Part shown: piece after piece, positions 9,773-26,497 of the stretch | Numbering within the stretch: position 1 is the first letter of the stretch | How the letters are laid out: every line of letters starts with the position of its first letter | DNA from: Rhodothermia bacterium | Lineage (GTDB): Bacteria; Bacteroidota; Rhodothermia; Rhodothermales; JAAAOL01 | NCBI GenBank assembly: GCA_030428385.1 | Contig: JAUIDY010000055.1 | Coordinates: forward strand, 1-38,874 | DNA: 38,874 bases | Direction: 5' to 3' | The notes under the pieces: model-generated | The model's input: only the letters and a program-made list of their open reading frames with translations | Told to the model about the DNA's origin: nothing | The model's database searches: none | Program-made: the position numbers and the translations under genes

Positions 9773-9804
9773 GCGGGGTGACCGCCGCTGGCGGTCACCC
9801 CCGC
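9773..9804 (+). terminator. Perfect 12-bp stem hairpin between secreted protein and PorV-family gene
   Basis: GGGGTGACCGCC and GGCGGTCACCCC form a 12-bp perfect stem (9775-9786 with 9790-9801) closed by the loop GCT, extendable by two pairs past one bulged base. It lies ten bases after the upstream stop codon. No T-run follows, so attenuation or protection of the upstream mRNA is as likely as full termination. Confidence 0.6.
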
Positions 9805-9885
9805 ACCTCAGCAATATTTAGACTACCCATGTGGACTTCCCCACGGCGTATGTCTACGAACCATTCAAACCGAGAAGGTGACCCT

Positions 9886-10923
9886 ATGATGAATCATAGA
9901 TACAAGCTGAGCATCTTGCTTATGCTCTGCCTCTTCCTCGTGCCCACCGCGTCTGCTCAAATTGATCCGGGCGATGTGGACACGGACAAAATTGCCCAAA
10001 CGGGCTTCAAGTTTCTCGAAGTGTCGACCGACGCCCGGGCGGCAGCCCTCGGCGATGCCCTGACGGCGTTTGAGAATTCTTCCTCATCGGCGATGTTCTA
10101 CAACCCCGCCGGTATGGCCAACCTCGACGGCCAGTTCAGTGCAGCCTTTGGCATGACGCAGTGGATTGCCGATATCAACTACAACTCCGCCAGCGCCGCC
10201 TACAATACCGGTGGCTTTGGTGTAGTGGGTGTCTCGCTCGTTTTTGCCGACTACGGCGATGACTTTATCGGGACCGTTGCGTCAACCGATGAAGACGGTT
10301 TCACCGAGTATGGCGAACTAGGAGTCGCCAACCCGAGCCCAACATCGTTGGCCGTAGGCGTTGGCTATGCCATCGCTCTCACGGACCGCTTTTCCGTAGG
10401 GGCCAACATCAAGTACGCGGCTCAGGATCTGGGTGAAGCGGTGCAATCGACGGACGGTGAAACCGAAGCCAACGATGTCTCGACGGCTGCGTTCGACTTC
10501 GGCGTGCTCTACAAAACGGGCTTCCGCAGCCTGAATTTTGCCATGAGCGTGCGTAACTTCGCGCAGGAACTGCAATACGTGAGTGACAACTTCGAACTGC
10601 CGCTGACCTTTAACGTCGGCGTTTCGATGGACCTCATGGACCTTGCCAACGTCAATCAGGACGTACACTCGTTCCGGGTAGGCGTAGAAGGCAAGCGCCC
10701 GCGTGACTTTTCCGAGCAGATCAAACTGGGCGGTGAGTACACGTTCATGAACATCTTCTCGCTCCGTGGTGGCTACACGTTCCCGACGGACGAGCAAGGC
10801 ATCAGCTTGGGCGCTGGGCTTCAGTATGGCATCTCTGGCGTTCACCTGGGCGTTAACTATGCCTACACCAGCTTCGGCGTGTTCAACGATGTGCAGCGTT
10901 TTGGTGTAAACCTGACGTTCTAG
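9886..10923 (+). CDS. PorV/PorQ-family outer-membrane protein
   Basis: A 345-residue beta-barrel protein of the PorV/UPF0164 type. PorV itself is the outer-membrane shuttle that passes type IX cargo to the attachment complex; paralogues are often coded beside cargo genes. The signal peptide covers about residues 1-25 (ending TASAQ). The family's N-terminal signature is clear: FLEVSTDARAAALGDA followed by MFYNPAGMANLDGQF. Alternating amphipathic strands run to a terminal phenylalanine (GVNLTF). The start is the first of two adjacent ATGs at 9886, with AAGGTG five bases upstream; the frame is open further upstream, but that part lacks a signal peptide. It closes the receptor / secreted protein / PorV module. 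Confidence 0.85.
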   Translation: MMNHRYKLSILLMLCLFLVPTASAQIDPGDVDTDKIAQTGFKFLEVSTDARAAALGDALTAFENSSSSAMFYNPAGMANLDGQFSAAFGMTQWIADINYNSASAAYNTGGFGVVGVSLVFADYGDDFIGTVASTDEDGFTEYGELGVANPSPTSLAVGVGYAIALTDRFSVGANIKYAAQDLGEAVQSTDGETEANDVSTAAFDFGVLYKTGFRSLNFAMSVRNFAQELQYVSDNFELPLTFNVGVSMDLMDLANVNQDVHSFRVGVEGKRPRDFSEQIKLGGEYTFMNIFSLRGGYTFPTDEQGISLGAGLQYGISGVHLGVNYAYTSFGVFNDVQRFGVNLTF

Positions 10924-11058: not shown

Positions 11059-12819
11059 ATGCTAGGGCTTTCTGAAACGATGCAGGTGGAGTGTGTCTGG
11101 TGCTTGCTCCTATTGATGCTGCTCACCGGTTGCGCGAAGCCGGAGAACTCTCCGGCAGGCGAGCCGGCGACCTCCGCATTGCCCATCACGCCTCTCGCTT
11201 TTGTGGACGTCGCTCCGGACGCCGGGTTGGGTGCCTTTGAGCATATTGATGGGAGCGAAGACCGCTTCTGGTTTCCCGAAAAAATGGGAGCGGGCGGAGG
11301 TTTTGTAGACATAAACGGGGATGGCTGGCACGACGTGGTGCTGGTTGGAGGGGGTCAACTTTCGCCGAGTGGCCCCGCTGATGTCCGGGCCCTCTGGCTT
11401 TTCCTCAACAACAAAGACGGGCAGTTCACGGACGCGACAGAAGCCTGGGGATTAGCCGATGTGCGCGCCTATGGGACAGGCATTACCGCTGCGGATTACG
11501 ACAACGATGGGGATCAGGATGTTTATCTTACCACCTTTGGAAAAAACCTGCTCTTTCGTAACGAGGGTACTCGCTTCGAGGAAGTAGGAGAAGCCGCTGG
11601 GGTTGCGTTGCCCGCTGCCTGGAGTAGCTCCGCCCTCTTTTTCGATGCAGACCGGGACGGCCACGTGGATCTGTATGTGCCAGGCTATGCCGATTGGTCG
11701 TTGGAAACCGATATTGACTGTCACCGAAGCGGAGGACGCCCCGATTATTGTCCCCCTGCCACCTATCCGAGCGCCAAAAGCTACTTCTACCACAACAACG
11801 GAGACGGGACGTTCTCTGAGGAAACCGCGCAGCGAGGATTCGCCGATGCACCCGGCAAGGCACTGGCGGTGGCCGAGTGGGACTTCAACCGGGATGGTTG
11901 GTCCGACGTGATGGTGGTGAACGATGGGCAACCCGACTTGCTTTACCACAACAACGGAGATGGCACCTTTACCGAACGCGGAACCGTGAGTGGCATCGCC
12001 TTTGGTGAACACGGCGAAGCGCGGGCCGGAATGGGGATCGACATTGGCGTGGTTGATTCGACGAGGCGCCCCTCGGTGTTTGTGGGCAATTTCTCCAGTG
12101 AGATGGTGGGCGTGTATCGACAGATGGAAAGTGGGTGGTTTGTAGACCGAGCCGCCGCGTCGCGGATAGGTGGGGCCAGCCTGACCACCCTGGCCTTCGG
12201 CGTCCTGCTGTTTGACGCCGATCTCGATACCGATCTGGATCTGTATGTCGCTAACGGCCATGTGTACCTAGACCCGCTGGATGGGTCGGCGTACCGCCAG
12301 CCGCCTCACCTGTTTATCAACCAGGGAAACGGAACCTTCAAAGACATGGCTGATACCATCGGCGGCGTCTTGACACAGCCTATGCTGGCACGGGGCGTGG
12401 CATCGGCAGACTATGACCGCGATGGCGATGTGGATTTGTTGGTGACCGAAAATAGCGGTCCTGTGCATCTGCTGCGCAATGACTCACAGCGGGGGCGGGT
12501 TGTCCGGGTTCGATTGTCGCAACCTGCGCACAATCCTGATGCACTCGGAGCACATGTATGGGCGGTTGTGCAGGGAGCCGAGCCACAACAGCGGCGGGTC
12601 CGAACCGGCTCGGGGTATTTGTCACAGTCCGAACAGGTATTGACGTTTGGGTTAGGCACGGCCACCCATATTGACTCACTGGTGGTACAATGGCCCGACG
12701 GGCAGATAGATCGGTTTGAAGGACTCCCCGCCGAGCATGAAATACATCTGAGAAAAGGAGCAGGAACGGTTGACCAAACCCCACTCCCTGTTCGGCGTCT
12801 CCCCGCGACTGATTCGTAA
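11059..12819 (+). CDS. CRTAC1-family lipoprotein 1 (FG-GAP/VCBS repeats plus ASPIC/UnbV domain)
   Basis: A 586-residue predicted lipoprotein. The signal segment ends in the lipobox LTGC with the lipidated cysteine at residue 25; an ATG at 11080 would also keep this signal. The body holds at least six calcium-binding DxDxDG-type loops of FG-GAP/VCBS repeats, at about residues 84, 148, 196, 275, 386 and 451, which should fold as a beta-propeller. Residues about 475-570 form the ASPIC/UnbV domain (VRTGSGYLSQSEQ, TFGLGTATHIDSLVVQWPDG). Cysteines 221 and 231 lie in an insert shared with the other two copies in this window. Family members are extracellular proteins of largely unknown function. It is followed after 90 bases by a TPR lipoprotein. 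Confidence 0.88.
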   Translation: MLGLSETMQVECVWCLLLLMLLTGCAKPENSPAGEPATSALPITPLAFVDVAPDAGLGAFEHIDGSEDRFWFPEKMGAGGGFVDINGDGWHDVVLVGGGQLSPSGPADVRALWLFLNNKDGQFTDATEAWGLADVRAYGTGITAADYDNDGDQDVYLTTFGKNLLFRNEGTRFEEVGEAAGVALPAAWSSSALFFDADRDGHVDLYVPGYADWSLETDIDCHRSGGRPDYCPPATYPSAKSYFYHNNGDGTFSEETAQRGFADAPGKALAVAEWDFNRDGWSDVMVVNDGQPDLLYHNNGDGTFTERGTVSGIAFGEHGEARAGMGIDIGVVDSTRRPSVFVGNFSSEMVGVYRQMESGWFVDRAAASRIGGASLTTLAFGVLLFDADLDTDLDLYVANGHVYLDPLDGSAYRQPPHLFINQGNGTFKDMADTIGGVLTQPMLARGVASADYDRDGDVDLLVTENSGPVHLLRNDSQRGRVVRVRLSQPAHNPDALGAHVWAVVQGAEPQQRRVRTGSGYLSQSEQVLTFGLGTATHIDSLVVQWPDGQIDRFEGLPAEHEIHLRKGAGTVDQTPLPVRRLPATDS

Positions 12820-12909
12820 GATAGTGGCGCCATCCCACCCTTTAGAACACACCTGAAAATTCAACGCACGTTGGCCTCGGCGTGCGGGCAGATGACGGAA
12901 CGACGTGTT

Positions 12910-14142
12910 ATGCACCCGATGAAGAAATGCGATCTCCTAGTGGTATGTCTCCTTTGCGCGGCAACCATCATGGGCTGCGGCAATGACCCTTCCACCCTTC
13001 CTACCACTGAAGAAGCACGGCGGGAAGCTGACCCTCGTGCCATTGCCTTTTTGCTCGAAGCCCAGCAAGCCTTCGAGTCGGAATACTTTAACCCCGCCCT
13101 GATGATGATAGACAGCGCGGCGGTTTATGCGCCCAACCTCGCCGACATTCCTTTTTTGCAAGGGCGGATTCTGACCAAGATGCGGCAATATGGCCCGGCG
13201 TTGGAAGCGTACGAAAAAGCCCTGGCCCTCGACCCGAATTATCCAGGGGTGTACCTCAACCTGGGCAATAACGCCTACCAACGGGGTGAACCGCATGAGG
13301 CGTTGGCGTTGTATCGGAAGGAAAAAGGAGCCGCCAACACCACCTTGTATCTCACGCAGTTGGGACGTGCCTACGCCGATCTGGGAAAAACAGACAGCGC
13401 CCGGATTGCATTTGAGGAAGCCCTCGCCATGGATCCTGAAGATCCAGCAGCATACATGTGGCTTGGGCAATCGTATGAAGATGAGGGCGACTTTGAAAAG
13501 GCATTGGAGTTTTCCCGCCAAGGGTTGGCGCTGCATCCTGGTAACCTCAACTATGCCTATGTGGTGGGGGTGCAACTGCTGCGCATGGAGGATTTTCAGG
13601 GTGCCGTCGACATGCTGAAGCCCGTAGCGGATGGCATGCCCTGGCATTATTCTGCCCATTATAACCTCGCACAGGCATACGCCGGGCTCGGAGATACGGT
13701 GCAAAGTGGGTATTACCTCGAATTATCTGATGGACTGCTGGAAGGACGAAAGGAAACCACCAAGTGGGAAGACTTACTCAAAGAAAACAGCGAAGAACCG
13801 ATGCTGTGGGTGAATTATGGCATGGCGCTGCACGAGGAGGGGCGGATGCAAGAAGCCATTGAGGCGCTAAATGTGGCCTATTCGCTTCGTCCCGATTGGC
13901 TGGAACTGCAGAACAATATCGCCAACATCCACATGGAGATTGGCGATATGAATGGAGCCTTGGCCCGCTTCCATGCCCTGTTGGATATCGATTCCACCAT
14001 GGCGGATGTATGGCTCAACCTGGGCACGGTGCACGCGATGTCGGGGAATTATGCGGAGGCGCGTACTGCTTGGGAAACGGCACTGCAGCATGCGCCCAAT
14101 CACCCAGAAGCGACAAGTTACCTCGCCCAACTGCCTCAATAG
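12910..14142 (+). CDS. TPR-repeat lipoprotein 1
   Basis: About 410 residues: a signal peptide with lipobox IMGC, then roughly ten tetratricopeptide repeats, helical pairs that serve as protein-docking surfaces. Typical TPR phrases are ALEAYEKALALDPNYPG, SARIAFEEALAMDPEDP and EARTAWETALQHAPNHP. Starts at 12910 and 12919 are both possible; either puts the lipidated cysteine near residue 20-23, whereas the open frame upstream to 12871 gives a poor signal. The opening phrase (LADIPFLQGRI) and the PWHYSAHYNLAQAYAGLGDT stretch recur in TPR lipoprotein 3, so the two are paralogues. Its stop codon abuts the next CRTAC1 gene with no gap, which points to translational coupling. Confidence 0.85.
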   Translation: MHPMKKCDLLVVCLLCAATIMGCGNDPSTLPTTEEARREADPRAIAFLLEAQQAFESEYFNPALMMIDSAAVYAPNLADIPFLQGRILTKMRQYGPALEAYEKALALDPNYPGVYLNLGNNAYQRGEPHEALALYRKEKGAANTTLYLTQLGRAYADLGKTDSARIAFEEALAMDPEDPAAYMWLGQSYEDEGDFEKALEFSRQGLALHPGNLNYAYVVGVQLLRMEDFQGAVDMLKPVADGMPWHYSAHYNLAQAYAGLGDTVQSGYYLELSDGLLEGRKETTKWEDLLKENSEEPMLWVNYGMALHEEGRMQEAIEALNVAYSLRPDWLELQNNIANIHMEIGDMNGALARFHALLDIDSTMADVWLNLGTVHAMSGNYAEARTAWETALQHAPNHPEATSYLAQLPQ

Positions 14143-15915
14143 ATGCGATTTCTGGAACACACGGGCGTTTCATTATTGGTGCAATGGATCATGGGGGCAG
14201 TGTTGGTCGGCCTACTGGTTGGGTGCGGCGGGAACACGCCTACGCCCACTGTCGAAAACAACGCGTTGCCCGAATCGGCAAGCGCCTTGCGGTTTACTAC
14301 CGTCACCGCGGGCACTGGCTTGGGGGATTTTAAACATGTTAATGGTGCGTTCGGCAAGTTGTGGTTTCCAGAAATCGTTGGTGGGGGAGCCGGGTTTATG
14401 GACTACGATGGCGATGGATGGGAAGACCTTGTGCTGGTCCAAGGCGGCACATGGGCAGAGAGTCCACACCCCCCGGTTTCAGCACTTGCCCTGTATCGTA
14501 ACCAGGGAGATGGTTCATTCACGGAGGTGACCGACCTGGTGGGATTGGAGGAGGTCGTCGCCTATGGGATGGGTGTCGCGCTTGCGGACTACGATAACGA
14601 TGGCGACCCCGACATTTTTCTAAGCACCGTGGATCGCAACCTGCTTTTTCGGAACGAGGCGACTGCGGATGGACAGCCCCGGTTTGTGGAAGTTGGGCTA
14701 GCCGCTGGGCTTACCGACATAGCTGAATGGAGCACCTCGGCCTTGTTCTTTGATGCCGACCTGGATGGCTATCTCGACCTGTATGTGGGCAATTATGTCG
14801 ATTGGTCGCCCGAAAAAGACATCGTGTGTACCATCGTCGAGAATAAAAAGTCGTATTGTACCCCCCAACTCTACGAAGGCACCGCGGGGCGTTTTTATCA
14901 CAACAACGGCGACGGGACTTTTTCAGACTGGACGGTGGAGGCCGGTTTCGCGGATGCACCCGGGAAAACGCTGGGTGTGGCAGAATGGGATTTTAATCAG
15001 GATGGCTGGTCGGATATTGTGGTTGCCAACGACACCCAGCGGGATCTGCTGTACCTGAATCAAGGAGATGGGACGTTTGTGGAACGCGGCGTGGCGAGCG
15101 GGCTGGCCTTCGACGAAAATGGAAAAGCGCGTGCGGGTATGGGGATCGACATTGGGATTTTGGATGAGACGGGACAGCCTTCCGTGCTGGTGGGCCATTT
15201 CCACAACGAGATGATGGGTGTGTATCGGCAGGTGGGAGACGCGCTTTTTGTGGACCGTTCAGCCCCTGCCCAGATTGGGCGGGCATCGATGGCCACGGTC
15301 ACCTTCGGGTTGTGCCTCTTCGACGCCGACCTAGATGGAGACCTGGACGTATTTGCCACCAATGGTCATATTTCCGAAGACGTAGAACTGGTGATGGGCA
15401 ATGCCCCATTTCGGCAACTTCCGCATCTCTTTCTAAACGAAGGCGAGGGGCGTTTTTCAGAATCGACGTTGTCGCTGACGCCGCCTGTGGTGGGGCGGGG
15501 GGTCGCCACTGCCGATTATGATCGGGATGGCGATGTGGATCTGCTCGTGACCGAAAATGACGGCCCCGTGTATTTGGTGCGGAACGAGTTAGAGGAAGGC
15601 CAGGCAGTACGCGTTGCCTTACAAGGTACAACCGCCAACCGCGATGCATTGGGAGCCCAGGTCGAAGCGGTGGTTGGGGCGCGACGTATGCATCAACGGG
15701 TCCGCAACGGTTCCAGTTACCTGGCCTCGTCTGAAAAAACGTTGACGTTTGGATTGGGCACTGCCTCCCAGATCGATACGCTGATCGTTCATTGGCCGGG
15801 AGGTGGTGTGGATCGGTATACGGCGCTTCCGGCGCAGCACGAAGTGTTGATTTCCCAAGGCGAAGGCATCCTTGCGCATCATCCGCTAGAGAAAGGGGAG
15901 GCTATGCGTGAATGA
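14143..15915 (+). CDS. CRTAC1-family lipoprotein 2 (FG-GAP/VCBS repeats plus ASPIC/UnbV domain)
   Basis: A 590-residue predicted lipoprotein starting immediately after the preceding TAG. The lipobox is LVGC with cysteine 28. Calcium-loop repeats are clear: MDYDGDGWEDLVLV near 87, ADYDNDGDPDIFL, FDADLDGYLDLYVGN, WDFNQDGWSDIVVAND, FDADLDGDLDVFATNGH and ADYDRDGDVDLLVTEND. The ASPIC/UnbV domain fills the last 110 residues (VRNGSSYLASSEKTLTFGLG). Cysteines 229 and 239 sit in the insert after the third repeat, followed by CTPQLYEGTAGRFYHNNGDG. This segment is much closer to copy 3 than to copy 1. The next gene overlaps its stop by four bases (ATGA). Confidence 0.88.
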   Translation: MRFLEHTGVSLLVQWIMGAVLVGLLVGCGGNTPTPTVENNALPESASALRFTTVTAGTGLGDFKHVNGAFGKLWFPEIVGGGAGFMDYDGDGWEDLVLVQGGTWAESPHPPVSALALYRNQGDGSFTEVTDLVGLEEVVAYGMGVALADYDNDGDPDIFLSTVDRNLLFRNEATADGQPRFVEVGLAAGLTDIAEWSTSALFFDADLDGYLDLYVGNYVDWSPEKDIVCTIVENKKSYCTPQLYEGTAGRFYHNNGDGTFSDWTVEAGFADAPGKTLGVAEWDFNQDGWSDIVVANDTQRDLLYLNQGDGTFVERGVASGLAFDENGKARAGMGIDIGILDETGQPSVLVGHFHNEMMGVYRQVGDALFVDRSAPAQIGRASMATVTFGLCLFDADLDGDLDVFATNGHISEDVELVMGNAPFRQLPHLFLNEGEGRFSESTLSLTPPVVGRGVATADYDRDGDVDLLVTENDGPVYLVRNELEEGQAVRVALQGTTANRDALGAQVEAVVGARRMHQRVRNGSSYLASSEKTLTFGLGTASQIDTLIVHWPGGGVDRYTALPAQHEVLISQGEGILAHHPLEKGEAMRE

Positions 15916-16973
15916 AAAGACGGACAAGGATTACGCCCGTTTTATGTTTGGGAGTTAGTGTCCTCCTGCTATTGGGGGGCTGTCGACCGGAAAACGTCCA
16001 AACACCTGCCGAACGGCTACAAGCTGCCGGTCCTGAGGTTGCCCGGATGTTGGTACAGGCCCGGGAAGCCACCGAAGCGGGGGCGTACCAAGAAGCGTTA
16101 TTGCTTGCAGATCAACTCATTAAAACAGCACCCGAGTTTCCGGAAGGGTACTACCAGCAAGGGCTTGTCTATTTTCACCTGCATCAACTCGGAGCGGCTG
16201 ACTCGGCCCTGGCACGCGCCGTCGCCCGCGACCCGTACTCGCGTGGGGCCTGGTACCAGCGTGGGCATGTGGCCTTTGAGGATGCCCATTACGACGAAGC
16301 CATCCGGCGGTATCAAAGGCAGCGTGATGTTATTCTTCAGTCGCCGCCGCGACTACGAGATTATTATCATGAAACCGACCGGGTTGCCTTGCCACAGACA
16401 TGGTTGCAGATCGGGAGAGCCTATCAACTGAAGCAGGTGGCCGATAGTGCGCGGCTGGCCTATCAACAGGTGATACAACTCGATAGCACCCATGCTCAGG
16501 CCCACGCTTGGTTAGCAGAACTGTATGAAGAGGAGGGACGCATGGAAGTCGCGGCGCAGCATGCCCGACTGGCGTGGATGCATGATTCGGATAATCCGAC
16601 CTACGCCGATCAACTCGGGGGCCTTCTTTTTAAGCAGGGAAACGTGGACGAGGCCTTGCCCCTGCTTGAACAGGCCGTGCGGGCCATGCCCTGGAAAGCC
16701 AGTGCAACCTATAACCTGGGGCGGGCGCTGGTGGCTTCGGGGGCAGCCGAGCGAGGCGAGCAGTACCTCATGCATACGGATGTGCTGCAAGAGTTGGAAC
16801 AGGCCATCAACCATGCCCGCGCTGGCGTGGCGCGCTACCCCAAGGATCCGGCCCGGTGGGAGTTCCTCTCGAACCTGCTGGGACGTGCCGGACTGCGTGC
16901 AGAACAAGCCCAAACCATGGCTGTGGCACGCACCCTCAAAGCCAACGATTCGACGCAGGTAAATCCGAACTAG
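15912..16973 (+). CDS. TPR-repeat lipoprotein 2
   Basis: A 353-residue predicted lipoprotein with lipobox LGGC (cysteine 24) and about seven tetratricopeptide repeats, for example YQEALLLADQLIKTAPEFPEG, ADSARLAYQQVIQLDSTHAQA and VDEALPLLEQAVRAMPWKASA. It is shorter and more divergent than the other two TPR lipoproteins here but keeps the shared late motif A-x-YNLGRAL. Its ATG overlaps the stop codon of CRTAC1 copy 2 (ATGA), and the cytochrome gene starts five bases after its stop. Tight coupling on both sides suggests that it works with these neighbours, probably as a docking protein in the periplasm or on a membrane face. Confidence 0.85.
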   Translation: MKRRTRITPVLCLGVSVLLLLGGCRPENVQTPAERLQAAGPEVARMLVQAREATEAGAYQEALLLADQLIKTAPEFPEGYYQQGLVYFHLHQLGAADSALARAVARDPYSRGAWYQRGHVAFEDAHYDEAIRRYQRQRDVILQSPPRLRDYYHETDRVALPQTWLQIGRAYQLKQVADSARLAYQQVIQLDSTHAQAHAWLAELYEEEGRMEVAAQHARLAWMHDSDNPTYADQLGGLLFKQGNVDEALPLLEQAVRAMPWKASATYNLGRALVASGAAERGEQYLMHTDVLQELEQAINHARAGVARYPKDPARWEFLSNLLGRAGLRAEQAQTMAVARTLKANDSTQVNPN

Positions 16974-16978
16974 ATGAA

Positions 16979-19726
16979 ATGGGCGTCCGGAAAAAATATA
17001 TCAAGCTACCCCAAAAGCAGCGTCGCCTGGTAAGTATTGTCCTGGCGGGATACCTCCTTTTGCTGCTCAACAGCCTCATTCTGCTTCTATTCGATAGCTC
17101 TACGGCTTCGGCCTACATGACCAATGTGCTTCTGCACGTAGTACTGGGCGTTCTATTGGTGCTGCCCGTAACGGTCTTCCTGGTGCTGCATCTGATGAAA
17201 ATGCCGTTTCACCTCAACCGGTCCGCAACCGTGGCGGGGGTTGGAACGGCGCTTTCCTTGGGGGTGCTGCTGGCCTCGGGATTTGGCTTGGTCGTTTATG
17301 GAGCCACGTTCGGCGGAGGCTGGATGCTCACCTCTCACCTCGTCTCCGCCGTTGTTACGGTGCTGGCCTTTGTGGGGCATGTTTCGCTCAAAAAGGGCGT
17401 GCGGTACCATTTTCTGGAGTGGGGCGATCAATGGCGAAAGGGTCTTGCTCCGGCGGTCCGTCACCCGTTCGGGCTTACCCTTTTGGCCGGGCTGGTGGTG
17501 ACGGCCTTGCTCCTGGTGCCTTGGCAAGGAACGAGCGACGTTTTTGTTGACCCCGGAGGAGACAATCCGTTTGCGGCCTCGCAAGCCATCCTGGCCCATG
17601 ACCAATACCTGGATCCCGAGGACCTGACCCGCTCCAATTCGTGTGGGCAGGTAGGCTGCCATCCCGATCTGGTGGAACAGTGGTCGGAATCGGTCCACCG
17701 GTTCTCCTCGTTCAACAATCCGTATTACAAGCGGACCGTAGAACTTATGGTCGCACGCAGCGGCGAAGCGCCCACCCGTTGGTGCGCCTCTTGCCACGAC
17801 CCCGTGGTGTTGTTTTCGGGAGGTTTTGGGAATGCGCAGCCGTTGGATATGGAACATGAGACGGGACAGGAGGGCATTACCTGCCTGTCGTGCCATGCCA
17901 TAGAAAGCCTGCGCGACCTGCGAGGCAACGGGCGTTTTGTCATCGGTCCACCGGATGAATACCCATTTGCACGCGCCACCGGCGGCGTGGGGCAGTGGGT
18001 TCATAACAAACTGATACGCATCAAGCCGGAACCCCACCGCAACGCGATGATCAAGCCTGTGCATCGGGCTGAGGCTTTTTGCGGGTCCTGCCATAAAGTG
18101 GGCCTGCCCCCCGAAGTGAACAATTATCGCTGGAAACGTGGCCAAAACGAATGGGATGCCTGGCATGCAAGCGGAGCCTCGGGAAACACCGTGCGCTCTT
18201 TTTACCTGCCCTCGCAAGCTGAGAACTGCGTGACCTGCCATATGCCGCTGGTTCCTTCTGACGACCAGGGGGGCACCGACGGATTAATTCGAAGCCATCG
18301 GTTTGCTTCTGCCAACACCGCCCTGCCGTACCTGAATGAACACCCTGCCCAGTTAGATGCCGTTCAGAACGCACTCGCGGACTCGATTGTCACCGTAGAC
18401 ATCTTTAGCGTCACAGTGAACGGACGCACGTACGGTCCTGATGACGCCATGCCCGTGTTGCAGCCACGACAAGAAGTGGCCATAGACGTGGTGGTGCGCA
18501 ACCGGAAGGTGGGGCACATGCTGCCAGGTGGCACCAACGATAGCAATGAGATGTGGCTGGAACTCCAGGCCCACAGTGAATCGGGAGACCGGGTGTTGGC
18601 TTCCGGACTCTTGGATGGACAGGGGCGGGTCGATTCCAGCGCTCATTTCTGGGGGGCAGTGCTGGTAGACCGGGCCAGTCAGATTATCGATAAGCGCAAT
18701 GCACAGGACTGGATCGCTACGGTATATGCCCACACCATTGGGCCGGGAACGGCGCATACGGTGCACTATCGGTTTGTGGTGCCCGACGAGCAACCGATTG
18801 TTGGCTTTCGCGCTGCCCTTCAACACCGCAAGTTTAAGTGGCAATACAACAACTGGGTGTTTCGGGGGCACCCCATGCCGGACCAGCCCGATTCTCTCGC
18901 GACCGCTGCCGTCGACTTGCGGCAATGGACCCTGAATGAAGAGGTCGCCCCTAGCCTTCCCATCACCACAATGGCCCATGCCGAGCGACAAGCGGGTGCT
19001 CCGCCGCTTTCCATGCGGCCCCGGTGGGAACGGTGGAACGACTATGGCATCGGGCTTTTCCTCGAAGGGGATACCCGTGCCGCCCTGGCTGCCTTTGCGC
19101 AGGTGTCCAATATCGCCCCGGAAAGCCCCGAGGGTCCTGTGAATCAGGCGCGGGTGTTCCTGGAGGAGGGTCAGCTTGACGAAGCCTGGGCAGCCCTCGA
19201 AGAAGCAGAACGGCGACGTCCCGGATACTTAAAAAATGCCTACTTCCGAGGGGTGTATTTTAAGGCGTTGGGGCAGTATGACGAAGCCATCGCCACATGG
19301 ATGCAGGTCTATGAAGACTATCCCATCGACCGGGTGCTTTTGCTCGACATTGGGCGGGTGCACTATCTGGCCGGTCGGTACGAGGAAGCACTGGTATGGT
19401 ACGACCGGGTGCTTGACATCGACCCGGAGGCGCTTGGTGGATTGTATAACCGGATGCTTGCCCTGGGGGCATTGGGACGTCAGGACGCGTTTGAGGAAGC
19501 CCAAGCCCTGTATGAATACCACAAGGACGACGAAGATGCGATGGCGATCACCACCCCGTTTAAGCAGCGCCATCCTATGGCGAACCGCGAGGCGCAGCCC
19601 ATCCATTTACATGAACTGACGGCACCGTCACCCGCTCAGGTTTCTCCGTCGTTGGCTTCTGACCCTGCACCCGTTCCCGGTATCCCTCCTGCCGTACCGT
19701 CTCACTCACCCGCTACCCGTCGCTAA
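16979..19726 (+). CDS. Membrane multiheme cytochrome c (c554-like) fused to C-terminal TPR domain
   Basis: A 915-residue protein. ATG at 16979 is chosen because it begins with a basic segment before the first membrane helix; the open frame upstream overlaps the previous gene. Five hydrophobic helices lie at about residues 17-38, 49-73, 84-107, 118-137 and 163-182. A heme region follows, with four CxxCH sites at 269-273, 302-306, 368-372 and 417-421 and a preceding CX4CH at 222-228. Histidines between them are possible distal ligands. The spacing recalls the cytochrome c554-type multiheme family that passes electrons in the periplasm. Residues about 440-670 look like beta-sandwich sequence, 680-855 are TPR repeats, and the last 60 residues are proline-rich. 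Covalent heme attachment would need the Ccm machinery. Confidence 0.87.
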   Translation: MGVRKKYIKLPQKQRRLVSIVLAGYLLLLLNSLILLLFDSSTASAYMTNVLLHVVLGVLLVLPVTVFLVLHLMKMPFHLNRSATVAGVGTALSLGVLLASGFGLVVYGATFGGGWMLTSHLVSAVVTVLAFVGHVSLKKGVRYHFLEWGDQWRKGLAPAVRHPFGLTLLAGLVVTALLLVPWQGTSDVFVDPGGDNPFAASQAILAHDQYLDPEDLTRSNSCGQVGCHPDLVEQWSESVHRFSSFNNPYYKRTVELMVARSGEAPTRWCASCHDPVVLFSGGFGNAQPLDMEHETGQEGITCLSCHAIESLRDLRGNGRFVIGPPDEYPFARATGGVGQWVHNKLIRIKPEPHRNAMIKPVHRAEAFCGSCHKVGLPPEVNNYRWKRGQNEWDAWHASGASGNTVRSFYLPSQAENCVTCHMPLVPSDDQGGTDGLIRSHRFASANTALPYLNEHPAQLDAVQNALADSIVTVDIFSVTVNGRTYGPDDAMPVLQPRQEVAIDVVVRNRKVGHMLPGGTNDSNEMWLELQAHSESGDRVLASGLLDGQGRVDSSAHFWGAVLVDRASQIIDKRNAQDWIATVYAHTIGPGTAHTVHYRFVVPDEQPIVGFRAALQHRKFKWQYNNWVFRGHPMPDQPDSLATAAVDLRQWTLNEEVAPSLPITTMAHAERQAGAPPLSMRPRWERWNDYGIGLFLEGDTRAALAAFAQVSNIAPESPEGPVNQARVFLEEGQLDEAWAALEEAERRRPGYLKNAYFRGVYFKALGQYDEAIATWMQVYEDYPIDRVLLLDIGRVHYLAGRYEEALVWYDRVLDIDPEALGGLYNRMLALGALGRQDAFEEAQALYEYHKDDEDAMAITTPFKQRHPMANREAQPIHLHELTAPSPAQVSPSLASDPAPVPGIPPAVPSHSPATRR

Positions 19727-21486
19727 TGCGCCCTTTGGAATCAATCAGACTTTTCGCCCGACTTATGGTGGGCAGTATGGTGTTGGGAGGGCTGTTTACT
19801 GCCTGCGGCACACCGGATGAACCGGTGGAATCACCGTCGACCGAGCAAGAGGAAGCGCTCCAATCGCTGACATTCACCGAGGTCACCGAGGAGGCGGGCC
19901 TGGAGGGGTTTCGGCACACCACGGGCGCCTTTGGCAACCGGTGGTTTCCAGAGTCGATGGGTTCAGGCGGCGGATTTGTTGATTTCGACGACGATGGCTG
20001 GCCCGATATCGTACTCACAGGAGGGGGGACCTGGCCCGATCATTCCGATGCCGCGCCGGTGGAGGCACTCCACCTCTATCGCAACAACGGAGACGGGACG
20101 TTCGACGAGGTAACGGCTGAGGTGGGCCTCGGAGGCATTCATGCCTATAGCCTGGGCGTGACGGCTGCCGACTACGACAACGATGGCGATCAAGACCTTT
20201 TCATCACCACGTTGGGGGAGAACTTGCTGTTTCGCAATGACGGGGGGCGTTTCTCGGAGGTGGGGACGGAAGCCGGGGTAGCTGGAGGCTTTTCCTGGAG
20301 CACCTCGGCCATGTTTTTTGATGCCGACCGGGACGGACACGTCGATTTATACGTGGGCAACTACGTTGATTGGACCCCGGAGAATGACCTCATCTGCATG
20401 CTCGAAGGCATGATCCGCAGTTACTGCACCCCGGAATTGTATGAGGGGGTGCCTGCCCGCTTTTACCACAACAACGGCGATGGTACGTTCAGCGACTGGA
20501 CCGACCGTGCAGGCTTCGCCGTTGCGCCCGGCAAAACATTGGGGATGGCCGAGATCGATGTAAATGGAGATGGCTGGTCGGATCTGTTCGTGGCCAACGA
20601 TACCCAACGAGACCTGTTTTACCTGAACAATGGCGATGGCACCTTTAAGGAACAGGGTGCCTTGAGTGGGATGGCCTACGATGAAAACGGCAAGGCGCGG
20701 GCTGGCATGGGCATCGATGTGGGCGTAGTGGATGAAACGGGTGAGCCGACGTTGTTTGTCGGTAACTTTTCAAAAGAGATGATCGGCGTGTTTCGGCACA
20801 TTGGCAATGGACTGTTTGTGGACCGCGCTGCGGCCTCTCAAATTGGTCGCCCCAGCCTGCTGACCCTCACTTTCGGGCTCTTTCTGTTCGATGCGGACCT
20901 GGACGGTGACTTCGATCTGTATGCCGCCAATGGGCATGTGCAGCCAGAAATTGATGAGACGCAAGAGGGCATCGACTACGCCGAATCCGCCCATCTCTTC
21001 CTGAACCAGAGAGACGGGTTGTTTGAGGATGTGGCGGCAGGAGATCTAGCAAAACCCATCGTCGGGCGCGGAGCGGCCTATGCCGACTATGACCGCGACG
21101 GCGACCTGGACATTCTGGTGACCGAAAACAGCGGCCCGGTCCATCTTTACCGGAACGACCTTGACACTGGTCGCTCCGTGCGCGTGCATCTGGAAGGAAC
21201 AGCCAGCAACCGTGACGGGCTGTCCGCCCGCGTCATGGGATACGTGGCGGGGAAGCCCCTGACCCGCTATGTCCGCACCGGATCCAGTTTTCTTGCCGTT
21301 TCGGAGAAGGAAGTAACCTTTGGGCTCGGGCAAGCCCCCTACCTCGACTCCCTGGTTGTCTATTGGCCGAGCGGGGCTGTAAATCGGCATGGGGCACAGG
21401 AAGCCGGATTCCAACTCACCCTGACGGAAGGGGAATCAATCGCCGAGGCTACCCCATTTAACACCCTGTCTTTGCCGCCAAACTAG
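19726..21486 (+). CDS. CRTAC1-family lipoprotein 3 (FG-GAP/VCBS repeats plus ASPIC/UnbV domain)
   Basis: A 586-residue predicted lipoprotein whose ATG shares one base with the cytochrome stop codon (TAATG), so the two are probably translated together. The lipobox is FTAC with cysteine 27. Repeats include VDFDDDGWPDIVLTGGG, ADYDNDGDQDLFITTLG, FDADRDGHVDLYVGNYVDW, IDVNGDGWSDLFVAND, FDADLDGDFDLYAANGH and ADYDRDGDLDILVTENSG, then an ASPIC/UnbV domain (VRTGSSFLAVSEKEVTFGLG). Cysteines 224 and 234 repeat the CX9C spacing of the other copies. The sequence YCTPELYEG and the DTQRDL phrase mark it as the closest relative of copy 2. It is probably surface-exposed or periplasmic. Confidence 0.88.
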   Translation: MRPLESIRLFARLMVGSMVLGGLFTACGTPDEPVESPSTEQEEALQSLTFTEVTEEAGLEGFRHTTGAFGNRWFPESMGSGGGFVDFDDDGWPDIVLTGGGTWPDHSDAAPVEALHLYRNNGDGTFDEVTAEVGLGGIHAYSLGVTAADYDNDGDQDLFITTLGENLLFRNDGGRFSEVGTEAGVAGGFSWSTSAMFFDADRDGHVDLYVGNYVDWTPENDLICMLEGMIRSYCTPELYEGVPARFYHNNGDGTFSDWTDRAGFAVAPGKTLGMAEIDVNGDGWSDLFVANDTQRDLFYLNNGDGTFKEQGALSGMAYDENGKARAGMGIDVGVVDETGEPTLFVGNFSKEMIGVFRHIGNGLFVDRAAASQIGRPSLLTLTFGLFLFDADLDGDFDLYAANGHVQPEIDETQEGIDYAESAHLFLNQRDGLFEDVAAGDLAKPIVGRGAAYADYDRDGDLDILVTENSGPVHLYRNDLDTGRSVRVHLEGTASNRDGLSARVMGYVAGKPLTRYVRTGSSFLAVSEKEVTFGLGQAPYLDSLVVYWPSGAVNRHGAQEAGFQLTLTEGESIAEATPFNTLSLPPN

Positions 21487-21493
21487 CCCTACC

Positions 21494-22720
21494 ATGCTGC
21501 GCCCTTCTGTAATACTGTCTCTTCTGCTGGGTGGCCTGCTGTTATTCGGTGCTTGTACCCGAACAGGACCTCAGGGAGAGACTGACACGGCACCGCCTAT
21601 GGATCCGACCACGGAGCGGATGCTGTATCAGAGTACGCAAGCGCTCCAAAGTCATGCGTTTGTCCAAGCGCTGGCGCTGGTGGATAGTGCTGAGGCGCGC
21701 GCGCCGGGACTGGCCGACGTGCCCTTTTTGCGCGGACGCATTTATGCCGAACTGGTGCGCCTGAAAGAAGCCGAAGCGGAATACCGCAAGGCGCTGGCCC
21801 TGCGCCCCAACTATCCCGGCGCATGGAATAACCTCGGCAACACCGCTTTCCGGGACCAACGCTACAGTGAAGCGATTCAGTTGTACCACCGCGAACTAGC
21901 CGCCAACCCCGATCCACGCCCGTGGCGAGGAATTGCCCGTGCGTACGTGGAACTGGGGAAGACGGACAGCGCACGTTTTGCCTTCGAGCGGGCCCTGGCG
22001 CTTGATGAGACCTTTGCCGAGGCGCATTTTGGACAGGCGTTGCTGCTGGACGATTTGGGCGATGCGGAGGGAGCCCTGAAAGCCGCTCGGGAGGCGCTTA
22101 CCTACGATCCTGACAATCTTGAATATCAGTACCATGTAGGTGCGTACCTTGTCAAACTGGGCCGCCCGGGCGAGGCACTGGCCTTGCTCGAATCCGTGGC
22201 AGAGGCATGGCCGTGGCATCAAGGGACCCACTATAACCTGGCGCAGGCGCTCATGCGGCTGGGCCGCACGGACGAAGCCGAGGCCATGCAAACGCGGGCG
22301 GAACAACTGCGGGACCTCCAAGCCCAGATTTCCCACCTCGAGAACACCGCCCGCGTACAGCACCGTGATCCGTTTGCCCACGCAGCACTCGGCTCGATGC
22401 TCCGGCGGGTGGGGCGGTACAACGACGCCATGCATGCCTATATGGTATCCTTGTATCTGGATCCCAGCAACCTGGAGGTGTACAACAACGTGGCTGTCTT
22501 GCACCTGCTGCGTCAGGATACCACGGCTGCCATCCGGGCGTTTGAGCAGATCGTTCAGGTTGATGCTACCAATCCGCATGCTTGGTTGAACCTCGGAAGC
22601 CTGTATGCGCTCTCCGATCAACTTGATGGTGCCAAATATGCGTGGGAAAAAGTGCTAGAGTACGACCCGGGAAATGAAGTCGCCTCCCGCTATCTGGCGT
22701 CGTTGACTCCTGTCCCTTGA
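21494..22720 (+). CDS. TPR-repeat lipoprotein 3
   Basis: A 408-residue predicted lipoprotein, lipobox FGAC with cysteine 21, starting seven bases after CRTAC1 copy 3. It has about nine tetratricopeptide repeats, such as EAEAEYRKALALRPNYPGAW, SARFAFERALALDETFAEA and AIRAFEQIVQVDATNPHAW. It aligns along its length with TPR lipoprotein 1, sharing LADVPFLRGRI near the start and a YNLAQAL phrase in the middle, so the CRTAC1/TPR pair looks duplicated as a unit. It is the last gene of the block; about 220 non-coding bases follow. Likely role: scaffold for its CRTAC1 partner or the cytochrome. Confidence 0.86.
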   Translation: MLRPSVILSLLLGGLLLFGACTRTGPQGETDTAPPMDPTTERMLYQSTQALQSHAFVQALALVDSAEARAPGLADVPFLRGRIYAELVRLKEAEAEYRKALALRPNYPGAWNNLGNTAFRDQRYSEAIQLYHRELAANPDPRPWRGIARAYVELGKTDSARFAFERALALDETFAEAHFGQALLLDDLGDAEGALKAAREALTYDPDNLEYQYHVGAYLVKLGRPGEALALLESVAEAWPWHQGTHYNLAQALMRLGRTDEAEAMQTRAEQLRDLQAQISHLENTARVQHRDPFAHAALGSMLRRVGRYNDAMHAYMVSLYLDPSNLEVYNNVAVLHLLRQDTTAAIRAFEQIVQVDATNPHAWLNLGSLYALSDQLDGAKYAWEKVLEYDPGNEVASRYLASLTPVP

Positions 22721-22939
22721 TTCCGTTTGGCTATCAAGGCAAGGGATTCTGTACGGGGCGTTTTTCTGTGCCCTTTGTAGGAAAGTCACGTGCTTGTCAC
22801 GTATCGCGGTTCCTTTTTGCTTATTGATTTTTGTATTCTTGATTTCCACATGTTGAATTAGGTGGTTGCTTCCCCCATTTGTTCAGGTGTGATCTATATA
22901 AAAACAGTTTCCACTCCACCTAAACATGATACATAAGTG
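22721..22939. other. Intergenic region before the second TonB receptor
   Basis: About 220 bases separate the lipoprotein/cytochrome block from the next receptor. It is more AT-rich than the genes, with a T-rich stretch at about 22810-22845, a duplicated GTCACGT (22785-22802) and TATATAAAA just upstream of the receptor. A promoter for the receptor is likely here, but I cannot fix its elements. No convincing intrinsic terminator is seen after the upstream gene. Confidence 0.4.
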
Positions 22940-25222
22940 ATGCCGTTGGTATGTAGTACGGTAGGGAAGGGAAAAACACTTCTCGGTTGGAGCATCGCCT
23001 TTTGCCTGTGGGCCGTGATGGGTGTAAGCGTGTCGTGGGCGCAAAATGCCACCATTCGTGGATTTGTCATCGCCGAAGAAGATGGCGAGTCGCTCCAGGG
23101 CGTCAATGTGGTGCTCGATGACCTTAGAGGCAACCTGGAAGGGGGAGCGACCGATGGCGATGGGTTTTACCTCATCCCCGGCATTACGCCCGGCCAGTAT
23201 GTGCTGCGGGCCACGTTCATCGGGTTTGCCACCTATGTGGACACGCTGACGCTGGAACCAGGAGCACGGCTCTTGCGCAACATCGAGATGTCGAGCGGGT
23301 CAGTGGAGATGGATGAGATCGCGGTGGAAGCGGAGCGCGAGAGCGGAGCCGCACGGGTGACAGCGGGGTTGCAGTCCGTGCAGGCGCAAGACATTGAGTT
23401 GGTGCCTGCCCCTGATGTGTCGGGCGACCTCGTCTCGTACCTGTCTACCATGCCCAGCGTGGTGCTTATGGGCGACCGAGGCGGGCAGGTCTTTATCCGG
23501 GGCGGAGAGCCCACGCAAAACATGACCATGATCGACGGGATGGACGTGTTCCAGCCGTTTCATGTGCTGGGCTTCTATTCGGCGTTCCCCTCCGAGATTG
23601 TGAGCCGTGCGGATATTTACGCGGGCGGGTTTGGCAATAAATACATCGGGCGCATTTCGTCCGTGATTGATGTGTACACCCGCAACGGCAACAAACGCGC
23701 CCTCAGTGCCTCGGCCTCGATGTCGCCCTTTACCAGCGCGGCCCACCTGGAGGGGCCGTTGCTGCGCGACCGCATCTCCATTCTGGGTTCTGCGCGGGTG
23801 TCTACGCTTGATCAGTTTGCCTCGCAATACATCGATGCCCCGCTGCCGTTTAAATTCAACGACTTCTTTGGCAAGATCCACGCCCGCGTGGGGCGCAGCA
23901 CCCAGGTCTCGGTATCGGCGCTGAGCACCTACGACCGGGGCACGCTCATTTCGGAAGATGACTTTTTCCAGCGTTCGGATGCCATCGCCTGGCGGAATAC
24001 AGCCATTGGGGGCCGGTATCTGGTAGCCCCCGCTGCCCTTTCGGTGTTGGGCGAAGTGTTGGTTTCCTACTCGCGCCTTGACAGCGAATTCGGGCCGCCC
24101 GGAGATCCTACCCGCACGGCGGTGCTAGAGACCGTTAATACGGCGGTCAACATGACTAACTATGTCGGCAACTCGGAAGTAAACTGGGGCTTTTTCTTGA
24201 AAGCCCCTACCACGGAAGCAGAGCTTGATGGCTTGTTTCAAAACGTCCAGACCAAACGCTTCCTGACAAGCCACACCGGAGCGTATCTGGAACCTGAGAT
24301 TTACCTGCGCAATGGCTTGTATATCCGTCCTGGATTCAGCGTGCAGGCGTTTGGCACCGCCGATATCTCGTTCGAGCCGCGCCTGCGTGTGCGTTGGGAG
24401 GGCGGGATTCATCACCTGAGTGGGGCTGCGGGCATCTACCGGCAGCACATCTTGGGCGTGAGCGACCGCCGGGATGCGACAAACATCTTCACCGCGTGGC
24501 TCGAAACGCCCGTTCACGAAGGCATGCGGGCGGTGCATGTGCTATTGGGCTATCGGGTGGAGCCCGCACCATGGATGGAGGTGTCGCTAGAGGGTTTCTT
24601 TAAAGACATGGACAACCTGTTCATCGGCGAGTGGACCGCGTTCCCGAGTTTTACCACCCGTTTGCAGCAAGCCTTTGGGCAGTCAGCCGGCTTCGATTTG
24701 CGCTTAGAGCTTCGCCGCCCGGCCTTCTATGGCTTCATCAACTATGGTTATTCCAACACGCTGTACGAAGTGATTCCAATCAGCGAGGCGTCGATAGATC
24801 CCGGCAAGTTTCGCCCGCCCCATGACCGCCACCATCAATTAAATGCGCTGTTGGCAACCAACCTTTACGGGTTTGATGTGAGTGTGCGCTGGCAGTTTGG
24901 CTCCGGGTTGCCCTATACGCGCGTGGAAGGATTCGACGGGTTTATTCTGATGGATGGCGTGGTGAATGTGGATGAAGTTCGGGGATTCCCCCGTGTGATT
25001 TATGAAAGCATCCCGTATCAGGCGGTGTTGCCTGCATACCACCGGCTTGATATCTCCGTCGAGCGGTCCTTCTCGTCCCCCGGTGGGTTGGAAGTCACCA
25101 CGCAGGTGGGGCTGCTCAATGTGTATGACCGAACCAACCTCTTTTCTCTGGATTTGCTTACAGCCCAGCGTTCCGATCAACTTCCCGTCATTCCTGTTGC
25201 GGGGGTCAAAATAGGCTTTTAA
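22940..25222 (+). CDS. TonB-dependent outer-membrane receptor, plug and barrel with N-terminal carboxypeptidase-regulatory-like domain
   Basis: About 760 residues. A GTG at 22937 directly precedes the chosen ATG. The signal peptide ends near VSWAQ at residue 34. A carboxypeptidase-regulatory-like domain follows (TIRGFVIAEEDGESLQGVNV, then DGDGFYLIPGI), then a plug at about 130-240 (VFIRGGEPTQNMTMIDGMDV, YAGGFGNKYIGRISSVIDV) and a beta-barrel ending in GVKIGF with terminal phenylalanine. It is smaller than the receptor at 4111 and of a different subfamily. Three related lipoproteins follow on the same strand. This layout resembles receptor plus surface-lipoprotein uptake pairs of Bacteroidota, although the lipoproteins are not SusD-like. 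Confidence 0.9.
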   Translation: MPLVCSTVGKGKTLLGWSIAFCLWAVMGVSVSWAQNATIRGFVIAEEDGESLQGVNVVLDDLRGNLEGGATDGDGFYLIPGITPGQYVLRATFIGFATYVDTLTLEPGARLLRNIEMSSGSVEMDEIAVEAERESGAARVTAGLQSVQAQDIELVPAPDVSGDLVSYLSTMPSVVLMGDRGGQVFIRGGEPTQNMTMIDGMDVFQPFHVLGFYSAFPSEIVSRADIYAGGFGNKYIGRISSVIDVYTRNGNKRALSASASMSPFTSAAHLEGPLLRDRISILGSARVSTLDQFASQYIDAPLPFKFNDFFGKIHARVGRSTQVSVSALSTYDRGTLISEDDFFQRSDAIAWRNTAIGGRYLVAPAALSVLGEVLVSYSRLDSEFGPPGDPTRTAVLETVNTAVNMTNYVGNSEVNWGFFLKAPTTEAELDGLFQNVQTKRFLTSHTGAYLEPEIYLRNGLYIRPGFSVQAFGTADISFEPRLRVRWEGGIHHLSGAAGIYRQHILGVSDRRDATNIFTAWLETPVHEGMRAVHVLLGYRVEPAPWMEVSLEGFFKDMDNLFIGEWTAFPSFTTRLQQAFGQSAGFDLRLELRRPAFYGFINYGYSNTLYEVIPISEASIDPGKFRPPHDRHHQLNALLATNLYGFDVSVRWQFGSGLPYTRVEGFDGFILMDGVVNVDEVRGFPRVIYESIPYQAVLPAYHRLDISVERSFSSPGGLEVTTQVGLLNVYDRTNLFSLDLLTAQRSDQLPVIPVAGVKIGF

Positions 25223-25399: not shown

Positions 25400-25441
25400 C
25401 CCGAGGTCATCCGATAGACCCAGGGTGGCTAAAGATTGCGT

Positions 25442-26497
25442 ATGATTCAAATAAGAGCAGTCCACACCAGGCAACGGTGGCTGATGCGCGGAAGCATCGC
25501 GTTGCTGCTGCTGGTTACGCTCACGCTAGGGTGTGAGCAAAACGTTGATCCCATCGCGGGCTCCGACTTCCCCTACACCATCTGGGGTTTTATGAACGCC
25601 GGGGCCGACACGCAGGTCGTCCGCGTCTTCCCGATTCGCGATGAACTAATCCCGGAACGCGGAAGTGAGATTGACGCGCGGGTGTTTTCGACCGATCTCA
25701 ACACGGGAGAACGTCGGGAATGGGTATACGAGCGTGTTCAGTTCGACAGTCTGATCGAGGGTCATCTGTTCAAAGCCCCATTCCGGGCAGAACACCTGCA
25801 TCGTTACCGGCTGGAGGTGGTGCGCTCAGACGGCGAAATGTCGAGCAGCGAGGTGGAAGTGCCTTCCGAAGTGGAATTTAACATCGACATCGATGAACAA
25901 AGTGTGGTCATTCCAGTCGAGATCCGAGGCGATATTCCCAACCTGATTGGCTTGCGTGTAACCTACCACGCCGTCAACATCCCGCCAGCTTCGGCCTGGC
26001 CTCCCGGAACGCCCGTGCCCGGTGCCGTGCAATTGCCGGTGATTATTTCGTATGATCATCTGGTGCGGCAGATTGATGGTGGCTGGCGGCTGGAAATTAA
26101 TATGACCCGCGATTTTGAGGCGGTCCGTTCTGCGTATCAAAATAACTGCCTGGTTACAGACATTGACGGCAGTGCGCCCTTTATTGTCTTACGACGCATG
26201 GATTTCTCAGCGTTGCTGGCCGATGGCTCCTGGGATCCCCCCGGTGGTATCTTCGACCCCAACGTGCTGTCGGTACCGGGTACGTTTTCCAACGTCGAGA
26301 ATGGCTATGGTTTCTTCGGGGCCGGGCAGGGTATCTTGCACGACTGGAGTCCGAACCTTCAGGTAGCCGAATTGGCAGGCTACCGGGCCGAGCAACGGTG
26401 CCTTGGCTTTGCGCAGGATATCCCCGAATGCTATGACCCCCCCATGCCGTGCTTGCAAGACAACATCGATGATATCTGGGAAGAATGGCTTGAGTGA
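25442..26497 (+). CDS. Tandem paralogous lipoprotein 1 of the second TonB receptor locus
   Basis: A predicted lipoprotein of 351 residues from the ATG at 25442 (a TTG lies six bases earlier). The lipobox is TLGC with cysteine 31. No family is recognised with certainty; size and place after a TonB receptor resemble DUF4249-type partner lipoproteins of Bacteroidota, which is only a guess. Features shared with the next two genes are PYTIWGF, VRVFPIRDE, a GERREW stretch, HRYRLEVVRSDGE, NLIGLRVTYHAVN, a WPPGTPV turn, and late cysteines in NCLVTD, RCLGF, ECYDPP and MPC. The short beta-strand pattern suggests immunoglobulin-like domains. The next gene overlaps its stop codon. Confidence 0.82.
   Translation: MIQIRAVHTRQRWLMRGSIALLLLVTLTLGCEQNVDPIAGSDFPYTIWGFMNAGADTQVVRVFPIRDELIPERGSEIDARVFSTDLNTGERREWVYERVQFDSLIEGHLFKAPFRAEHLHRYRLEVVRSDGEMSSSEVEVPSEVEFNIDIDEQSVVIPVEIRGDIPNLIGLRVTYHAVNIPPASAWPPGTPVPGAVQLPVIISYDHLVRQIDGGWRLEINMTRDFEAVRSAYQNNCLVTDIDGSAPFIVLRRMDFSALLADGSWDPPGGIFDPNVLSVPGTFSNVENGYGFFGAGQGILHDWSPNLQVAELAGYRAEQRCLGFAQDIPECYDPPMPCLQDNIDDIWEEWLE

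Follow-up and report, generated by a model that had tools for sequence, protein, structure and literature searches.

What does a membrane-bound multihaem cytochrome do in the middle of a row of lipoproteins whose family, the bacterial CRTAC1/ASPIC-UnbV proteins, has to our knowledge no established function? The question is raised by a 38,874-nucleotide stretch of a Rhodothermia bacterium (assembly GCA_030428385.1, contig JAUIDY010000055.1, positions 1 to 38,874 of the forward strand; hereafter the window), in which a sequence-only reading had recognized seven genes as a unit: three CRTAC1-type lipoproteins (CRT1, CRT2 and CRT3), three TPR lipoproteins (TPR1, TPR2 and TPR3) and a cytochrome with a TPR tail (CYT). 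The genes bear out this description: all seven are present on the + strand (Table 1), and from TPR1 to TPR3 successive junctions measure 0 bp, a 4-bp overlap, a 5-bp gap, a 1-bp overlap and a 7-bp gap. Pfam families FG-GAP_3 and UnbV_ASPIC score above their cut-offs in CRT1, CRT2 and CRT3, several TPR families match TPR1 to TPR3, Cytochrome_C554 and a TPR tail are found in CYT, and lipobox-like cysteines occur in all six non-cytochrome proteins (by pattern match and by-eye reading only). The limits drawn around the block, 11059-22720, were too short, with the same-strand run extending from a TonB receptor at 4111 to 28748. As for the unit itself, the cytochrome-CRTAC1 link is conserved over nine phyla and TPR and CRTAC1 domains occur fused, but the set as a whole is not conserved; the row is instead two conserved modules merged, not one ancestral unit. 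Module A is a Rhodothermales outer-membrane cluster (TonB receptor, P10, PorV, alternating CRTAC1/TPR lipoproteins, TonB receptor, DUF4249), and module B pairs the cytochrome with the CRTAC1 gene behind it, which in the window is CRT3.

Module B is widespread. A scan of species genomes yielded at least 589 confirmed CYT relatives, of which the best 80 loci were analysed (Acidobacteriota, Poribacteria, Rhodothermota, Gemmatimonadota, Bacteroidota, Planctomycetota, Calditrichota, Fidelibacterota, Latescibacterota, Pseudomonadota and KSB1). Counting as testable the 70 named loci whose sequence runs on for 800 bases or more past CYT, and as a direct neighbour any downstream CRTAC1 gene on the same strand with a gap of −350 to +800 bp, CRTAC1 directly followed CYT in 46 of 70 loci from nine phyla, frequently with a 4-bp overlap: 34/37 in Acidobacteriota, 3/3 in Gemmatimonadota, 3/6 in Rhodothermota, 0/14 in Poribacteria, and one locus each in Bacteroidota, Planctomycetota, Calditrichota, Fidelibacterota, Latescibacterota and Pseudomonadota. 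CRTAC1 density drops steeply with distance from CYT. A named carrier of the cassette is Snuella sedimenti CAU 1569. As a guard against best-hit bias, 80 evenly sampled Acidobacteriota genomes were searched on their own (CYT at E 1e-80); there, 9/10 CYT-positive genomes, the seed excluded, had a same-strand downstream CRTAC1 with 63-480 bases between the aligned regions (P about 3e-21 with the background set generously), and in 9/9 of those the neighbouring copy was the top-scoring CRTAC1, though each genome carries several. The two genes also occur together in the window's order, where 44 of 99 genomes have both, 1 has CYT only, 4 have CRTAC1 only and 50 have neither (Fisher p 3e-22, not phylogeny-corrected), a match that largely holds within families f2 and f5, in which presence varies. 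Evolutionarily, members from Calditrichota, Cyclobacteriaceae and family f8 group together in both the CYT and the CRTAC1 trees (quick trees, SH-aLRT only, the Shimodaira-Hasegawa-like approximate likelihood-ratio test), and the pair therefore appears to have moved as a unit.

Other features of these loci can be recorded alongside. Sensor-kinase-like and response-regulator-like genes lie near a CRTAC1-CYT-CRTAC1 arrangement in six Acidobacteriota loci (L126, L136, L138, L147, L148 and L156), mostly just upstream, as assigned by eye and clustering rather than by Pfam. Among L111-L145, 16 Poribacteria loci carry CYT with no neighbouring CRTAC1.

Structurally, CYT has five hydrophobic segments, as the sequence-only reading had it, and c-type haem motifs comprising four CxxCH and one CX4CH, the cysteines and histidines of which are invariant across 61 CYT sequences. 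Its AlphaFold2 model is confident (pLDDT, the predicted local distance difference test, 89.5; pTM, the predicted template modelling score, 0.87), and residues 212-672 superimpose on the pentaheme c552 of Thermochromatium tepidum (5ze8) with Z 17.8 and a root-mean-square deviation of 3.5 A over 343/385 residues, sharing its fold and, like it, carrying an Ig-like domain behind the pentaheme domain. The profile of the haem region likewise finds 5ze8 (E 2.1e-12) well ahead of the remaining PDB matches. The NCBIfam ExtKL model (NF040886) matches 24/31 CYT members, all under its cut-off, and since the window CYT scores 22.5 bits against a curated cut-off of 250, CYT is not ExtKL itself. By fold and profile, its haem domain, and the haem domain only, is placed with the PHC (c552/ExtKL) family. 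In the membrane part, His53 and His120, on helices two and four, are invariant in 61/61 sequences and make up one probable haem b site, judged from this conservation; a second histidine pair is partial, with His134 in 33/61. Invariant candidates for distal histidines (His240, 353, 440 and 513) number four for five haems, so that one of the five haems has no evident invariant distal histidine. The C-terminal tail ends in a conserved EAQPIHxH motif (residues 872-878), one histidine of which is present in 56 and the other in 60 of the 61 sequences.

That the window joins two modules follows from the rows of its relatives. In G034, of another family in the same order, locus L085 reads TonB receptor-P10-PorV-CRT1-TPR1-CRT2-TPR2-TPR3-TonB receptor-DUF4249, collinear with the window and 51-67% identical to its genes, with only CYT and CRT3 missing between TPR2 and TPR3; the same genome keeps its own CYT-CRTAC1 pair at 1.11 Mb (L067), ~0.94 Mb from the module A row. 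The G024 row (L084) likewise lacks the cytochrome pair, and also CRT2 and TPR2, and in families f15 and f13 the TonB receptor-P10-PorV rows include CRTAC1 and TPR genes and lack an adjoining cytochrome. The expectation that CRTAC1 and TPR genes would keep company with the cytochrome thus fails for CRT1, CRT2 and TPR1 to TPR3, which occur with the TonB receptor, P10 and PorV, cytochrome-free, in many relatives, but not for CRT3. A cytochrome pair inside a CRTAC1/TPR/TonB row was found in three settings: the window, family f3 (L063 and L065) and L102. The L102 record, a metagenome-assembled genome labelled Neomarinimicrobiota, may be mis-binned, because its CYT is 60% identical to that of the window; its CYT/CRTAC1/TPR block (L102:7125-19782) also contains a PQQ dehydrogenase that bears a haem domain.

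The lipoproteins themselves do not look like products of a recent expansion within the row. CRT2 and CRT3 had been read as alike, whereas pairwise identities of the three copies are nearly equidistant (53.6, 53.8 and 55.5%) and the CRTAC1 tree joins CRT1 with CRT2 (SH-aLRT 98), leaving CRT3 outside. The proposed likeness of TPR1 and TPR3 holds, these being the closest TPR pair at 38% identity, against 26 and 33% for the others. Duplication and mixing of a CRTAC1/TPR unit, as the sequence-only reading proposed, is weak as a recent event: recent tandem duplication was rejected because other families of the order possess a distinct orthologue for each of CRT1, CRT2, TPR1, TPR2 and TPR3 (51-72% identity for CRT1, CRT2 and TPR2) and because the CRT copies are nearly equidistant. 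In the same tree, Rhodothermales outer-membrane copies are nested within multi-phylum cytochrome-linked copies, and their radiation would therefore have come later; this suggests that the cytochrome-linked copies are the older, a direction that we infer, as the tree is midpoint-rooted. The window's genome holds 40 segments matching CRTAC1/ASPIC-UnbV, and a second CRTAC1/TPR cluster (L017, G000:C86) lies in it without a cytochrome. In fold, the model of CRT2 matches murine CRTAC1 (9etn) with Z 40.3 and 2.3 A over 454 residues at 21% identity.

A tie between TPR and CRTAC1 proteins is suggested by natural fusions. Beside CYT, many Acidobacteriota, as well as members of Calditrichota, Gemmatimonadota and Pseudomonadota, encode proteins of ~1070-1350 residues with an N-terminal TPR part and a CRTAC1 part. 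For the fusion of L157, the presence of TPR, FG-GAP_3 and UnbV_ASPIC is confirmed by Pfam, and no CxxCH haem motif occurs in the fusions. The fusions therefore support a partnership of TPR and CRTAC1, physical or functional. The L157 fusion (L157:14675-18235) and similar ones have a C-terminal extension of ~450 residues with no Pfam match, and in three Poribacteria loci (L118, L121 and L145) a TPR-CRTAC1 fusion lies 4.6-5.9 kb upstream.

Mechanistically, we posit that CYT is a pentaheme relay linked to quinone, with a CRTAC1 lipoprotein docked to it, and that in the window this relay has merged with a second module, a reading that we consider fairly probable. The membrane domain would hold at least one haem b at His53/His120 and exchange electrons with the quinone pool, a link made plausible by known fusions of b- and c-type inner-membrane cytochromes (CbcL, PMC9129911). 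Electrons would pass through the five c haems of the c552/ExtKL-type domain on the periplasmic side, while the TPR tail of CYT and the TPR lipoproteins would dock CRTAC1 lipoproteins that hold or position a redox partner or substrate; where module B lies within module A, as in the window, the relay may serve what module A takes up or displays. Gene linkage, domain composition, the invariant residues, the kinship of the haem domain and the natural fusions are observed; haem b, quinone, docking and partner are deduced. In a broader form, which we put forward tentatively and which may well prove mistaken, a redox system linked to quinone, hitherto undescribed and shared across phyla, would use the CRTAC1 propeller as the subunit of CYT that binds the substrate or partner; TPR proteins or TPR domains would dock CRTAC1, and the outer-membrane CRTAC1/TPR lipoproteins would have radiated later from that partner.

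Several observations weigh against the docked relay. CYT stands without a CRTAC1 neighbour in family f15, of the same order, and in all 14 testable Poribacteria loci, so a partner next door is not required for the cytochrome to act. The membrane domain has no convincing match to a cytochrome b family (cytochrome b561 matches 2/26 CYT members, and the window CYT not at all), and its haem b is accordingly read from the two histidines. In 120 loci, no enzyme of known substrate recurs beside the CYT-CRTAC1 pair: FAD, PQQ, GMC, 3-keto hydrolase, GFO, SusD and GH97 representatives were searched and none is widely recurrent. Finally, when TPR1 and CRT2 were modelled as one chain, TPR1 being read through its in-frame TAG stop into CRT2, AlphaFold folded both halves well (mean pLDDT 88.2) but gave a pTM of 0.63, with relative placement not confident and no interface score returned, a result to be read as the lack of a confident interface and not as a negative.

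A serious rival, though on present evidence an unlikely one, sets the start of the pathway in sugar oxidation in the periplasm or at the surface: FAD or PQQ dehydrogenases would oxidise glycans and feed the electrons into the pentaheme domain, from which they would reach quinone, with CRTAC1/TPR lipoproteins binding the glycan. Individual loci fit this, among them the Snuella sedimenti row (SusC-SusD-CRTAC1-CYT-GH97-GH101), an FAD_oxidored gene that in seven loci of a single clade is near CYT or immediately precedes it, the haem-bearing PQQ dehydrogenase in the L102 block, and a 3-keto-disaccharide hydrolase near L064, L092 and L101. The CRTAC1 propeller also resembles aldos-2-ulose dehydratase (Z 27), though many other propellers score 24-31. 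Such enzymes do not recur across phyla (FAD in 7, PQQ in 4 and 3-keto hydrolase in 3 of 120 loci), however, and no such dehydrogenase is among the window genes examined. Alternatively, the CRTAC1 beside CYT could be an assembly or stability factor outside the electron path, and the TPR proteins scaffolds likewise. The lack of a haem motif in CRTAC1, as seen in the fusions, agrees with this, and the hydrazine synthase beta subunit, a propeller that belongs to a multihaem complex and has no known active site (PMC12758564), is a precedent; but the CYT genes of Poribacteria and f15 that lack an adjacent CRTAC1 would be unexpected unless a distant copy serves them, and we regard this role as quite unlikely.

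Two further explanations concern the row rather than the pair. The merger could be genomic only, CYT-CRT3 having been inserted here or lost elsewhere, with CRT1, CRT2 and TPR1 to TPR3 having no working relation to CYT. G034 and G024, in which module A lacks CYT-CRT3 and this pair is found at another place in the genome, speak for this, as does family f15 with module A and a solitary CYT; yet in three separate settings the pair is embedded in a CRTAC1/TPR/TonB cluster, and the near-zero gene spacing suggests co-transcription. We find a purely genomic merger somewhat unlikely. Promoter and terminator scans gave counts close to the shuffled background. The original proposal of one dedicated seven-product complex, in which the cytochrome sends electrons outward to surface propellers, we judge improbable. 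We know of no redox centre in a CRTAC1 propeller, and only the CYT-CRTAC1 and CRTAC1-TPR links are conserved, not the seven-gene set, although the tight gene packing and the TPR-CRTAC1 fusions are in keeping with such a complex and outward electron transfer is known for fused b-plus-c cytochromes, CbcL among them (PMC9129911).

Table 1 Genes of the merged row and its reverse-strand flanks, in window coordinates.
Feature	Coordinates	Strand	Module	Remarks
SecA-like protein	671-3073	-		800 residues; hydrophobic stretch at extreme C-terminus (residues 773-791); possibly an accessory SecA
TonB-dependent receptor A (SusC/RagA-like)	4111-7395	+	A	Opens module A; CarboxypepD_reg and Plug
P10, secreted protein	7448-9763	+	A	C-terminal tail like type A of the type IX secretion system (T9SS), weak
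PorV/PorQ-family outer-membrane protein	9778-10923	+	A	NF033709, 197.9 bits (cut-off 90)
CRT1, CRTAC1-type lipoprotein	11059-12819	+	A	FG-GAP propeller and ASPIC/UnbV
TPR1 lipoprotein	12910-14142	+	A	Orthologues 60-64%
CRT2, CRTAC1-type lipoprotein	14143-15915	+	A	
TPR2 lipoprotein	15912-16973	+	A	
CYT, membrane cytochrome	16979 (ATG)-19726	+	B	Five helices, pentaheme c and Ig-like domain, TPR tail
CRT3, CRTAC1-type lipoprotein	19726-21486	+	B	Immediately after CYT
TPR3 lipoprotein	21494-22720	+	A	
TonB-dependent receptor B	22937-25222	+	A	CarboxypepD_reg and Plug; 64% orthologues at equivalent position
DUF4249-type lipoprotein, copy 1	25436-26497	+	A	Carries the DUF4249 match
DUF4249-type lipoprotein, copy 2	26494-27561	+	A	Tandem copy
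DUF4249-type lipoprotein, copy 3	27660-28748	+	A	Tandem copy
Xylose isomerase	28771-29940	-		TIGR02631, 565 bits; NAD-dependent epimerase and esterase genes adjoin

Gene by gene, module A of the window has close counterparts in its relatives. Receptor A matches the SusC/RagA subfamily model under the curated cut-off, and its orthologues (64-65%) hold the equivalent position in G034 and G024, where P10 is also found (63-65%). The P10 tail reaches E 2.4e-4 and 21 bits against TIGR04183, just below the cut-off of 23, and the gene adjoins that of the PorV/PorQ-family protein. CRT1, separated from TPR1 by 90 bp, has orthologues of 67-72% in G034, G024 and G006; those of TPR2 stand immediately behind CRT2 in G034 (51%) and G006 (61%), and those of TPR3 (58-60%) lie in the G034 and G024 rows without the cytochrome pair. 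The three DUF4249-type copies are 58-66% identical to each other.

For a large bacterial family of unknown function, a cassette that couples it to a cytochrome offers a first functional handle, and together with the natural fusions it raises testable questions: does CRTAC1 bind CYT, and what does the pair oxidise or reduce? The cytochrome family concerned has been studied for extracellular electron transfer, and CYT adds to it a new architecture of membrane helices, c552/ExtKL-type pentaheme domain and TPR. The cassette is not described in the open-access papers searched; as most subscription journals fell outside that search, its novelty is provisional.

How, then, does the window compare with systems already known? 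Its row resembles SusC/SusD glycan uptake loci in having a putatively SusC-like TonB receptor in one gene row with outer-membrane lipoproteins, but differs in that these are CRTAC1/TPR lipoproteins, with no SusD match among the neighbouring window proteins scanned. Animal CRTAC1 is a secreted protein. Cartilage acidic protein 1, as it is also called (9etn), shares its fold with the CRT2 model over the propeller and ASPIC region, whereas the bacterial copies are lipoproteins whose genes lie in redox or outer-membrane surroundings. The sole CRTAC1-multihaem neighbourhood found in the open-access papers searched is that of hydrazine synthase (HZS) homologues outside anammox bacteria (PMC12758564), where, as with CYT, c554-type multihaem genes adjoin a CRTAC1 family gene; those homologues contain alpha and beta-gamma subunits, CYT is of other make-up, and hydrazine synthase is absent from the fold and PDB profile match lists of the CYT haem domain, HZS subunits not having been used as queries. 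Geobacter CbcL (PMC9129911) is likened to CYT by architecture: both fuse membrane helices and haem b (probable in CYT) to a periplasmic multihaem c domain, CbcL with six helices, two b and nine c haems, and CYT with five c haems, a TPR tail and a CRTAC1 partner. Closest in the haem domain are the pentaheme c552 of T. tepidum (5ze8) and Geobacter ExtKL, of the PHC family described for cable bacteria and Geobacter, members of which are classed as potentially catalytic with an open-coordinated haem (PMC11976967). CYT likewise has five c haems and an Ig-like domain, and unlike them it adds a five-helix membrane domain, a TPR tail and the pairing with CRTAC1.

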